DNA of 39,260 bases from Bacteroidales bacterium (lineage in GTDB: Bacteria; Bacteroidota; Bacteroidia; Bacteroidales; F082): the NCBI GenBank assembly GCA_024681295.1, contig JAILBC010000163.1, forward strand, positions 1 through 39,260. The letters run 5' to 3'. Under the pieces are notes generated by a model. That model searched no databases, had not been told where the DNA came from, and was given only the letters and a program-made list of their open reading frames with translations. Positions 19,200 to 22,380 of the stretch are shown here, piece after piece. Numbering within the stretch: the stretch's first letter is position 1; each line of letters begins with the position of its first letter. A program made the translations under genes and the position numbers.

Positions 19200-20477
19200 A
19201 TGTTATACTATCTTTTCCAGTATTTAAACCAAATCAATTTCCCTGGGGCAGGCGTTTTCACCTACGTCACCTTCCGTGCCGCAATCGCCATCATCATGGC
19301 CCTCATCGTATCCGTGTGGTTTGGCAACTGGTTCATCAAGATGCTCAAGCGTAAGAAAGTCGTCGAGACTCAGCGCGACGAAAAGACCGACCCTTATAAC
19401 ACCGCCAAGAAAGGTGTGCCCACCATGGGCGGCGTCATCATCATTGTCTCCATCCTCGTCCCCGTGCTACTCGTTTGCAAGCTACACAGCGTCTACACCG
19501 TCCTGATGATCGTCACCACCCTGTTGTTGGGCATCATCGGGTTTGCAGATGATTACGTCAAGACCTTCAGGAAAAAGAAAGACGGCCTCAAGCCCGCAGT
19601 CAAGCTCGGCGGACAGATTCTGTTGGGCCTCATCGTGGGATTGACTTTGCGTTTCAGCCCTGCCGTTCATATCAACGAGACCGTGCAGGTGAAGATTGAG
19701 AACAACAAAGAAGTCGTGGTGAAGAGTCCCGATGTGAAGTCGACCCGCACCACCATCCCCTTCGTCAAGAACCATAACCTCAACTATGCCAACCTGTTCA
19801 AATGGGCCGGACCCAAATGGATGCACTATCTGGCATGGATTTTCTTCGTGCTACTCACCGTTTTCATCGTGGCTGCCGTGAGCAACGGTTCCAATCTCAA
19901 CGATGGCATGGACGGCATGGCCTCAGGTAACTCAGCCATCATTGGAATAACGCTAGTCATCCTAGCCTATATCTCCAGTAACGCCGTCACGGCGGGCCAC
20001 TTCAACCTGATGTTCATACCCGGAAGTGAAGAGCTGGTGGTGTTCCTGGCCGCTTTTGTGGGCGCCCTCATCGGCTTCCTGTGGTTCAACTCCTTCCCTG
20101 CGCAGATCTTCATGGGCGACACCGGCAGTCTCACCATCGGCGGCATCATCGCTGTGTCGGCCATCATCATGCACAAAGAGTTGCTGCTGCCCTTGCTCTG
20201 CGGGGTGTTCCTCTTCGAGATCCTTTCCGACCTCGACGTGAAACGCTTCGTCAAGACAGGCAAGAAGCACCGCATCTGGAAGAAAGGTCCCCTTCATGAC
20301 CACTTCAGAACGAGCTACAGCGACTTCAAGAAGGCCTGGCCCAACAGCACCGTCACCTTCAAAGGTCGCGGCGAGGGCTACAATATCGTACACCACGAGG
20401 TGAAGATCACCATCCGATTTTGGATCATCACCATTTTGTTGGCGGCGTTTACGCTGATTACCTTTAAGATAAGATAA
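19200..20477 (+). CDS. mraY: Phospho-N-acetylmuramoyl-pentapeptide-transferase
   Basis: MraY makes lipid I at the inner membrane by moving phospho-MurNAc-pentapeptide to undecaprenyl phosphate. The 425-residue multispan protein carries KKGVPTMGG, GFADDYVKTFRKKKDGLKPAVKL with the catalytic DD pair, NGSNLNDGMDGMASG and FMGDTGSLTIGG, and ends with KKHRIWKKGPLHDHF. A polar segment between transmembrane helices (about residues 155-195) is longer than in E. coli, as is common in this phylum. The next frame begins 20 bases after the stop, too close for a hidden N-terminal part of murD. Confidence 0.97.
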   Translation: MLYYLFQYLNQINFPGAGVFTYVTFRAAIAIIMALIVSVWFGNWFIKMLKRKKVVETQRDEKTDPYNTAKKGVPTMGGVIIIVSILVPVLLVCKLHSVYTVLMIVTTLLLGIIGFADDYVKTFRKKKDGLKPAVKLGGQILLGLIVGLTLRFSPAVHINETVQVKIENNKEVVVKSPDVKSTRTTIPFVKNHNLNYANLFKWAGPKWMHYLAWIFFVLLTVFIVAAVSNGSNLNDGMDGMASGNSAIIGITLVILAYISSNAVTAGHFNLMFIPGSEELVVFLAAFVGALIGFLWFNSFPAQIFMGDTGSLTIGGIIAVSAIIMHKELLLPLLCGVFLFEILSDLDVKRFVKTGKKHRIWKKGPLHDHFRTSYSDFKKAWPNSTVTFKGRGEGYNIVHHEVKITIRFWIITILLAAFTLITFKIR

Positions 20478-20497
20478 AAGATAAAAGTTATATACAA

Positions 20498-21034
20498 ATG
20501 AGATATTTATTTGCAAAAGCCGAAACCCTTACTCCGCAACGTCCCTCCAATATGGCTTCGGGCATCGCCTCGAAGATTGTGGAGATCAGGAACGAGAACA
20601 TCAAACGCTGCATGGGCGACACCATCGCGCACCGTCAGCAATACATCGACACCGTTGACGGCGTCATCTACTACGACGATGCCAAGGCCGAGAACGTCAA
20701 CGCCACCTGGTTCACCTTCGAGAACATCGTCAACCCGGTGATTTGGATTGTGGGCGGCTCGTGCCACAACAATTATAGCGAGTTGATTGACACGGCACGG
20801 AAGAAAGTGAAGACCATCATCAGCATCGGCAACGAGCAGGAAGGCATTGAACTGACTTTCCGCAACGTAGTGAAGGAGATTTACCATGCCGACTCCATTG
20901 AGAAGGCAGTCAGCATGGCCTCCATCCTCGCCGAGGAGAACGACCTTGTACTCTTCTCGCCTGCCTGCAAAGACAGCGAGATGAACTATGAAGAAAGAGG
21001 AAAACGCTTTGTGGAAGAGGTGAGCAAACTATGA
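20498..21034 (+). CDS. MurD C-terminal-domain-only protein (murD remnant or pseudo-ligase)
   Basis: The 178-residue protein sits exactly at the murD position of the dcw cluster and aligns only with the end of MurD. Residues 17-45 match the helices after the central domain (SNMASGIASKIVEIRNENI...HRQQYIDTVDGV). Residues 59-71 (YDDAKAENVNATW) match the (N)DSKATNxxAT motif. SPAC (154-157) and NYEERGKRF (163-171) match the SPACASFDxFKNxExRGxxF motif, here shortened. The N-terminal UDP-binding domain and the P-loop ATPase domain are absent. The usual GGxDKGxD motif is GGSCHNNY, lacking the lysine. It cannot be a working ligase alone. The frame is intact, with an ATGA overlap to ftsW. It may be a structural remnant or decaying; a full MurD must lie elsewhere. 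Confidence 0.85.
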   Translation: MRYLFAKAETLTPQRPSNMASGIASKIVEIRNENIKRCMGDTIAHRQQYIDTVDGVIYYDDAKAENVNATWFTFENIVNPVIWIVGGSCHNNYSELIDTARKKVKTIISIGNEQEGIELTFRNVVKEIYHADSIEKAVSMASILAEENDLVLFSPACKDSEMNYEERGKRFVEEVSKL

Positions 21035-22380
21035 GTTGGATCAACAAGATATTGAAAGGCGACCGTGTGATCTGGGTGGTGATGTTCATTTTGGGCATTA
21101 TCTCGTTGATTGCCGTGTACAGCGCCACCAGTTCGGAGGCCCATGTGCGTGTCGGAGCCTACAACGAGCAAGTGCTGATCAAGCATGCTGCCACATTGTT
21201 AGCCGGTTTCGTCATGATGTTCGCGGCATCGAGAATCAACTACCGTCGTTACTCCCGTGCCATCGAACTAGTGCTGCTGTTGTGCTTTGTCCTGCTGATC
21301 TTCACTTATTTCTTTGGAAGCCGCATCAACGGTGCTTCCAGAAGCATCATGGGATTCCAGACCAGCGAGTTGGCCAAGATCGTGCTGATTACCTATCTAG
21401 CCAAATACATCGTGGTGTGGAACCAGAAAGAGTACACTTTCAAGAAGCTCCTCCTTCCCATCTTCCTTCCTATCCTCCTCATCGTGGCCCCCATCTTCCC
21501 TGAGAACCTCTCCACGGCAGCCATGCTCTTTGTAGTGTGCATCGTGATGTTGTTCATCGGGCAGATCAAGTTCAAATACATCATGGCGCTGATTGGCATC
21601 GTGATTTTGGGCATGGGCCTATACATCCTCACGGACGACATCGTGGCCACCCGTCGTCAGCACAAGTACGAAAAGGTGGTCCGCCTTGCCGAGGAGAACC
21701 CCAACGACATCAAGTTGCAGGAGAAAGCCGCCAAGAAGCCCAGGGTGAGCCGCGTGAAGACTTGGATTGGTCGTATCGAGGCCATGAAAGAAGAGAAGGC
21801 CGCGAAGAAGGCGCTTGACGAAAGAGGCGAGAAGGTGCCGTTGCAGATCGACGACCGTAACGCCCAGAAGACATACGCCAAGATTGCCGTCGCCCGTGGA
21901 GGTCTCTTTGGAAAAGGATCGGGTAAGAGCACCCAGCGCAACTTCCTGCCCCAGCCCTTCTCCGACTGTATCTACGCCATCATCATCGAGGAATACGGAC
22001 TTGTTGGAGGCATCTTCGTGATGCTGCTCTATATTATCCTGCTCACACGGTCCATCAGGATCATGAAGAAACGTCCACTGACCTTCGGAGCCCTGATGTC
22101 GTTCGGCATCGCCTTCATCCTCATCATGCAGGCCATGATCAACATGGGTGTTTCCACTGGTCTGCTACCAGTGACGGGACAACAGCTCCCCTTCATCAGC
22201 AAAGGCGGCTCGTCGATGCTCATGACGGGATTCGCGGTCGGGATGATCTTGAGCGTTACTAGAAGTTTGGAGGAAACGGAAAACGGAGAACGGAAAACGG
22301 AAAGTAATGAGTTAGAAACGAGGAGTGAGGAGTTGAATAATGAACCTTTGGAAACTGAACAATTAGAAACTGCATTATGA
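21031..22380 (+). CDS. ftsW: Lipid II polymerase FtsW (SEDS family)
   Basis: The 449-residue multispan SEDS protein polymerises septal peptidoglycan with FtsI. It has IYSATSSEA-type and GSRINGASRSI segments, QTSELAKIVLITYLAKY, and the C-terminal TGQQLPFISKGGSSMLMTGFAVGMIL. Two oddities are seen. The large extracytoplasmic loop before AKIAVARGGLFGKGSGKSTQRNFLPQPFSDCIYAIIIEEYG carries a charged, probably helical stretch (residues about 205-280) longer than in E. coli. The last 37 residues are a Glu/Thr-rich tail made from 7-bp repeats. The start overlaps the murD remnant stop, and the stop overlaps the murG start. Confidence 0.95.
   Translation: MSWINKILKGDRVIWVVMFILGIISLIAVYSATSSEAHVRVGAYNEQVLIKHAATLLAGFVMMFAASRINYRRYSRAIELVLLLCFVLLIFTYFFGSRINGASRSIMGFQTSELAKIVLITYLAKYIVVWNQKEYTFKKLLLPIFLPILLIVAPIFPENLSTAAMLFVVCIVMLFIGQIKFKYIMALIGIVILGMGLYILTDDIVATRRQHKYEKVVRLAEENPNDIKLQEKAAKKPRVSRVKTWIGRIEAMKEEKAAKKALDERGEKVPLQIDDRNAQKTYAKIAVARGGLFGKGSGKSTQRNFLPQPFSDCIYAIIIEEYGLVGGIFVMLLYIILLTRSIRIMKKRPLTFGALMSFGIAFILIMQAMINMGVSTGLLPVTGQQLPFISKGGSSMLMTGFAVGMILSVTRSLEETENGERKTESNELETRSEELNNEPLETEQLETAL
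22270..22336 (+). repeat. 7-bp tandem repeat encoding the FtsW tail
   Basis: The tract reads as heptamers GAAACGG, AAAACGG, AGAACGG, AAAACGG, AAAGTAA, TGAGTTA, GAAACGA, GGAGTGA, GGAGTTG. It joins the CGGAAAA-type and GGAGTGA-type units in one place, linking the two flavours as one family. Confidence 0.8.

Follow-up and report, generated by a model that had tools for sequence, protein, structure and literature searches.

A MurD C-terminal domain at the murD position

The window analysed here is the whole stretch of 39,260 nucleotides from a contig of a Bacteroidales bacterium (JAILBC010000163.1), and it carries a dcw cluster in the order ftsI, murE, mraY, a short gene, ftsW, murG, murC, ftsQ, ftsA and ftsZ. 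Apart from those of the Mur ligases, the gene names rest on homology and gene order. The features around the short gene are listed in Table 1.

Table 1. Features at the murD position of the window.
Feature	Position	Strand	Basis
mraY	19200..20477	+	position and homology
Gap of 20 bases from the mraY stop to the short gene	20478..20497	+	
Short MurD C-domain gene (MurD-C), 178 aa	20498..21034	+	intact 178-codon frame with ATG start; profile matches, alignment
N-terminal segment, residues 1-44: what is left of the final helices of the central domain, HN pair missing	20498..20629	+	alignment; AlphaFold2 pLDDT <50
Folded C-terminal (glutamate-ligase-type) domain, residues 45-178	20630..21031	+	
DDAKAEN, counterpart of NDSKATN; Asp61 = E. 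coli D317	20675..20695	+	alignment
GGSCHNNY, counterpart of GGxDKGxD; D-Glu-binding Lys (E. coli K348) lost	20753..20776	+	alignment
SPACKDSEMNYEERG, counterpart of SPACASxDxFxNYExRG, two residues shorter	20957..21001	+	alignment
ATGA overlap of the short-gene stop with the ftsW start	21031..21034	+	
ftsW	21031..22380	+	position and homology

The original prediction had placed at the murD position, between mraY and ftsW, an intact frame of 178 residues corresponding to the end of MurD only, and the profile matches agree. The NCBIfam murD model (TIGR01087) aligns with the short gene over profile positions 303-439 of 441 only, scoring 96.1 bits, which is below its cut-off of 211.95. The Pfam Mur_ligase_C model (PF02875) scores 35.7 bits, above its cut-off of 28.4, and by score as well as by fold the product is a Mur ligase C-domain. 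The short distance to mraY and the overlap with ftsW were also found as predicted. The N-terminal UDP-binding domain and the central P-loop domain are missing, and only 20 bases separate the frame from mraY; the prediction was right on this loss and needs one refinement, as about 40 residues of the end of the central domain are kept. As judged from its sequence, the short protein cannot by itself be a ligase. It shares with full-length MurD the position between mraY and ftsW, the C-domain fold and recognisable DSKATN, SPAC and NYExRG motifs, but it has neither the UDP-binding domain nor the larger part of the ATP-binding domain, and both the HN pair and the equivalent of K348 are gone.

Fold and ligand-site residues of the short proteins

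The start of the window protein aligns near position 256 of E. coli MurD, and this first residue of segment 1-44 lines up with a conserved internal Met of full-length MurD. In an AlphaFold2 model made with 31 sequences, the C-domain is well predicted (block means of 74-96 from residue 51) while the first 44 residues stay below 50. Structural comparison with Foldseek and VIA-align superposes residues 36-178 on the C-domains of MurD. The N-termini take a form of MTLEELALQG in many short proteins and differ in others, including that of the window.

The motif changes noted earlier (DAKAEN, GGSCHNNY and a SPAC-type motif shortened by two residues) are all present in the alignment, and we followed the corresponding sites in a set of 45 short and 47 full-length proteins, from which loci L300, L268 and L184 were excluded because of a missing dcw hit or a contig edge. 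The D-Glu-binding lysine, present in all 47 full-length proteins, is kept in only 8 of the 45 short ones. The central-domain HN pair (E. coli H268-N269 in the UniProt count) is found in 47/47 full genes and in none of the 45 short ones; the short gene of genome G294 likewise lacks it. Residues of the fold (Trp71, Trp83, Val104, Ala137, Ser154-Pro155 and Phe171 in the window count) are conserved to at least 91% within both groups of short proteins. Together, these counts indicate that the ligand sites erode in proteins whose fold is preserved.

The pattern bears on whether the C-domain has kept the ability to bind an amino acid or a nucleotide and, as a regulatory sensor, adjusts other Mur enzymes, among them MurL and the second MurD-like protein (MurD2) described below. 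According to PMC4816537, MurD binds its amino acid through the C-domain; the equivalent of D317 (Asp61 in the window) is retained in all 45 short proteins aligned, and five of them keep all six site residues checked. Nevertheless, the K348 equivalent has gone from 37/45, that of K319 from 22/45 (kept in 23) and that of S415 from 20/45 (kept in 25), in addition to the HN pair that every one of them lacks, and we regard a sensor of this kind as unlikely.

Retention and selection in the genus

The short gene is present in 33 of 36 genomes of the same genus (own genome included), and the remaining three lack mraY as well. In 32 of the 33 carriers, its immediate neighbours are mraY on one side and ftsW on the other. 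In the dcw cluster of genome G015 (L167:6239-9396), mraY is absent and murE is followed by the short gene and then by ftsW. Scanning named genomes with the short protein yielded 34 loci, all with mraY before and ftsW after the gene (34/34), although a scan with the short protein itself as query is unable to show absences. These loci belong to Bacteroidales MAGs; where their titles give a source, it is a ruminant or some other gut sample. The presence of the gene in 33/36 genomes and at 34 named loci rules out an assembly error at the murD position.

Codon models gave the short gene an omega of 0.057 in one set of 14 species and of 0.101 in a second set of 14, values that are rough because synonymous change is high in both sets. 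For seven neighbouring genes, the lowest and highest values are 0.035 (mraY) and 0.136 (ftsQ) in the first set, and 0.041 (mraY) and 0.112 (ftsQ) in the second. Among four close genomes (L069-L072), there are 3-5 synonymous and no nonsynonymous differences in the short gene, and the close pair L064/L065 differs by 24 synonymous and 4 nonsynonymous changes. Presence and dN/dS in relatives were the checks proposed earlier, and of the two fates foreseen for the gene, retention of a domain is borne out by its genus-wide presence, its low omega and the purely synonymous changes among the four close genomes.

A rival account is a role in cis only, in which the frame is kept because it carries ribosomes from mraY to ftsW by translational coupling, or because a promoter or an RNA signal acting on ftsW lies within it. 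Such a role would suit the ATGA overlap in the window and the presence of ftsW next on the same strand in all 45 short genes checked. An overlap with ftsW is nevertheless found in only 9 of these 45; in the other 36 there is a gap of 0-271 bases, a rough estimate as the first in-frame start was used. Moreover, a signal need not keep a folded domain, and selection acts on the amino acids, the synonymous sites being near saturation between the window and L039 (pS 0.60). Owing to this amino-acid constraint, coupling or a cis signal alone is an insufficient explanation, and we give it little credence.

The other fate foreseen, a decaying gene, finds no support in this genus. A slowly rotting leftover that is conserved in appearance only would account for the loss of ligand-site residues in many lineages, for the very divergent genes of genomes G103 and G326, and for the faster evolution of the short genes compared with the full ones: at equal operon distance, the median C-domain divergence is 0.44 for short and 0.36 for full genes, and farther out 0.66 and 0.39. 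The faster C-domain points to partly relaxed, not neutral, constraint. Neutral decay agrees poorly with omega values inside the range of the neighbours and with the excess of synonymous changes in the close genomes; frames are intact in 45/45 short genes, though the other part of the gene has been lost many times. Neither relaxed selection typical of a pseudogene nor a broken frame was thus found, and we consider decay a still poorer account than the role in cis.

A MurL-MurD2 pair in the same genome

The suggestion that a true MurD lies elsewhere holds in part. The search of the genome for a full-length MurD, as earlier proposed, located one on contig C44 (L073:9755-11014; 312.2 bits to TIGR01087) with its own C-domain; it is MurD2-like, of the predicted L-Glu type, and not an ordinary MurD. 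Directly before it and overlapping it, on this contig other than that of the window, lies a MurL-like gene of 453 aa (L073:8401-9762), which matches NF041275 over residues 14-412 (E 3.4e-77) with 259.8 bits, below the cut-off of 700 that applies to this model, which is named for Xanthomonadales. A search for glutamate racemase (MurI, TIGR00067) gave no match in any of the 36 same-genus genomes, and MurL was found in 32 of them. The relatives of MurL in 31 other genomes of the genus, at 54-85% identity, rule out a contaminant contig as the source of the pair.

In the Xanthomonas pathway (Feng et al. 2017, as told in PMC8788868), MurD2 adds L-Glu, which MurL then epimerises. The same source states that Glu197 and Arg358 of X. 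oryzae MurD2, equivalent to D182 and K348 of E. coli MurD, decide the choice of L-Glu. Glu, Arg and Ile occupy the positions of E. coli D182, K348 and K319 in all 13 MurD2 proteins aligned, own included. The own pair thus resembles that of Xanthomonas in the L-Glu-setting Glu and Arg, in the MurL-like gene directly before MurD2 and in that MurI was not found; it differs in the MurL match below the cut-off, and in some relatives MurL and MurD2 form one frame. The own genome and genus appear to use the predicted L-Glu route known from Xanthomonas in place of MurD catalysis.

The one-frame arrangement, of 885-996 residues, was observed in G019, G021, G024, G028 and G031 of the same genus (loci L171-L175), and MurL and MurD2 share an open frame also in G111, G136, G200, G274 and G331 of other families. 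It looks like a natural MurL-MurD2 fusion.

A split enzyme, in which the short protein would supply its C-domain in trans to an orphan N-terminal and central part of MurD or to MurD2, is very improbable, since the predicted fold of a complete Mur ligase C-domain suits it but nothing that looks like an orphan N-terminal or central fragment is among the eight hits that the MurD model gives in the own genome (all frames besides the short gene have at least 423 residues), MurD2 has its own C-domain and the site residues are lost in this genus.

Short and full murD across Bacteroidales

We sampled 295 Bacteroidales genomes of at least 90% completeness and counted MurI as strong at E under 1e-25; the majority of all sequences analysed here are from drafts. 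MurL is present in 96 (in one, G107, by a fragment match) and strong MurI in 187; none has both and 12 have neither. Weak racemase matches, the best at 4e-21, occur in 22 MurL genomes besides the fragment one.

Short and full genes were told apart by the length of the open frame (resolved in 89 MurL and 131 MurI genomes); the neighbours were checked for the short genes except that of G130 and for part of the full ones, and the contig of G040 ends before mraY. Besides the own genome, 39 of 95 MurL genomes carry a short gene, 50 a full one (G107 counted among these) and six are undecided (four without a dcw-type hit, two at contig ends). In the 133 strong-MurI genomes searched out of 187, the gene is full in 131, split by contig ends in one, without a hit in one and short in none. 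The 12 genomes with neither comprise one with a short gene (G050) and 11 with full ones. Fisher's test of 39 short and 50 full against 0 and 131 gives 9e-19; the genomes are related, so the tree presented in the next section is the better test. Since the C-domain was the search handle, loss of the whole gene would appear as no hit, which concerns at most 4 of the 95 MurL genomes (G055, G085, G109 and G156; in G055, mraY too gave only weak partial matches).

Full MurD in the dcw cluster of MurL genomes (e.g. L100, L270-L299) keeps seven N-terminal and central residues and K348 in 32/32 cases, and the ratio of N-terminal plus central to C-domain divergence is 1.24 there and 1.16 in MurI genomes. 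Catalytic decay of the full MurD is therefore not seen. As MurD looks intact where no strong MurI was found, these genomes may run two routes or may have another source of D-Glu.

Three genomes carry a short gene with neither MurL nor MurD over the cut-off. In G050 (L077, L176; 98% complete, 10 contigs) the short MurD-C is very degenerate, and MurI was not found either; the other two, both of the own genus, are G023 (L163; 97% complete) and G016 (77%). They may reflect gaps or a further route.

Repeated truncation of murD

A tree of mraY and ftsW from 105 operons (50 short, 55 full) implies 18 changes between short and full genes, 13 of them forced by branches with at least 95% SH-aLRT support. 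A full gene cannot regrow, and for this reason changes were also counted one way only, which on the resolved tree again gave 18 truncations. The tree is a quick one without bootstraps, leaves out L300, L268 and L184 (no dcw hit, or a contig edge), and exchange of operon pieces could shift some of these counts. An earlier tree of 91 rows, made without L300 and, four excepted, without rows that did not offer both genes, had given 14 changes, 10 of them forced. The own family of the window contributes only 13 members to the trees.

Short and full genes also occur side by side within single genera: G294 beside G145 and G229, G176 beside G314 and G254, G083 beside G180, G258 and G316, and G040 and G152 beside G235 and G299. 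Nucleotide homology of G294 (to G145 and G229) and of G176 (to G314) runs to about the mraY stop, breaks off for about 790 bases and sets in again no more than 6 bases from the ATG that serves as the new start. In these two comparisons within a genus, the gene was shortened by an in-situ deletion that ends at an internal Met codon. For G083 against G180 and G040 against G235, homology returns later, at 158 and 120 bases inside the short gene, respectively. The tree and the same-genus comparisons rule out a single old truncation.

Import of a foreign short gene is not favoured. Among 12 short genes compared, drawn from mixed families, those of G176, G238, G083 and G105 are closest to the full gene of their own family; G040, G152 and G150 have another short gene of the family as nearest relative, and for G124, G165, G069, G038 and G297 it is neither of these. 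In several families, the C-domain of the family's own full MurD is closest to the short gene.

The Met column at which the short genes newly start holds the most conserved Met of the full-length genes (45/47). Its 21-base lead is rich in A/T, with fractions of 0.75 and 0.65 compared with 0.58 and 0.56 ahead of other Mets. E. coli MurD has Leu at this column and Streptococcus agalactiae MurD has Met; because of this shared Met, and because the A/T-richness may follow from the encoded residues, an internal start is only hinted at.

The extremely divergent short genes of family f69 (L269 of G103 and L308 of G326) lie between mraY and ftsW, near the limit of recognition.

A proposed second role of the MurD C-domain

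Loss of the catalytic parts while the fold of the C-domain stays leads us to infer a second, non-catalytic role of this domain. The reading we lean towards, at slightly better than even confidence, is that the MurD C-domain of Bacteroidales has such a role and was kept as an adaptor after MurD2 and MurL had taken over. In a genus without recognisable MurI, the MurL-like gene and the MurD2-like gene directly after it would take over catalysis, and the ligase part of the dcw MurD would then be free to go. The sequences show that the dcw murD has lost the UDP-binding domain together with the greater part of the ATP-binding domain, with the C-domain remaining under purifying selection. Across the order, this truncation took place many times, nearly always where MurL is found (G050, G016 and G023 being exceptions), and many short genes share the same starting place. 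The C-domain would persist as a small adaptor tying together components of the peptidoglycan and division complex on the membrane side; FtsW, MurG and MraY, as operon neighbours, are candidate partners, though any choice of partner is a guess. As far as our analysis goes, an adaptor in this complex is the most likely role, and a scaffold function of the short protein is plausible.

The operon position and the published contacts of Mur ligases fit with an adaptor. Thermotoga MurD, MurE and MurF bind MurG and MreB, as told in PMC6420597 and PMC4816537, and Mycobacterium tuberculosis Mur synthetases interact with FtsW, FtsQ and FtsZ according to PMC3605390, which found no contact among the Mur synthetases themselves. 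Both cases involve contact of Mur ligases with the wall or division machinery, as we propose here, but through whole enzymes, whereas the short protein offers the C-domain only. In Acinetobacter, MigC binds MurD residues 55-354, mostly outside the C-domain, as given in PMC12208494. Against the reading as a whole we count the partly relaxed constraint, the very divergent genes of G103 and G326, the failure to find MurL or a MurD over the cut-off in G016, G023 and G050, the four MurL genomes without a dcw-type hit, the later return of homology in G083 and G040, and the score of the MurL match below the cut-off.

A more far-reaching form of the adaptor reading, possible but in our judgement rather doubtful, is that MurD of Bacteroidales is two-functional. 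Its C-domain would be a structural module of its own in the divisome and peptidoglycan complex, perhaps already made from an internal start where species retain whole MurD, and the takeover of catalysis by MurL and MurD2 would have uncoupled the two functions at least 13 times, with only the module left. If so, nature would itself have separated the functions of a Mur ligase, as an experimenter might. A possible parallel is PAP11, a MurE-like protein of the plastid polymerase.

Significance

A literature search of incomplete coverage brought up no publication that deals with a truncated dcw MurD, nor one about Bacteroidales MurL, and the MurL taxa given in parts of two pathway reviews (PMC8788868, PMC5808125) include no Bacteroidota. 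We rate the short gene as a retained pseudoenzyme domain that is unusual for its many parallel origins. The MurL-MurD2 route is suggested for about one third of the Bacteroidales genomes sampled (96/295), and its spread matters for drugs directed against MurI, MurD or MurD2.

It has long been asked if Mur ligases have tasks beyond catalysis, such as assembling a complex at the membrane, and essential catalysis masks any second role. Here catalysis has apparently been taken over, so that the job of the kept C-domain may be studied alone. Gut and rumen Bacteroidales that appear to have exchanged MurD for a different pathway have repeatedly trimmed murD down to one and the same non-catalytic end part without giving up its place in the cluster, and this suggests a second job of the domain in building the cell wall.
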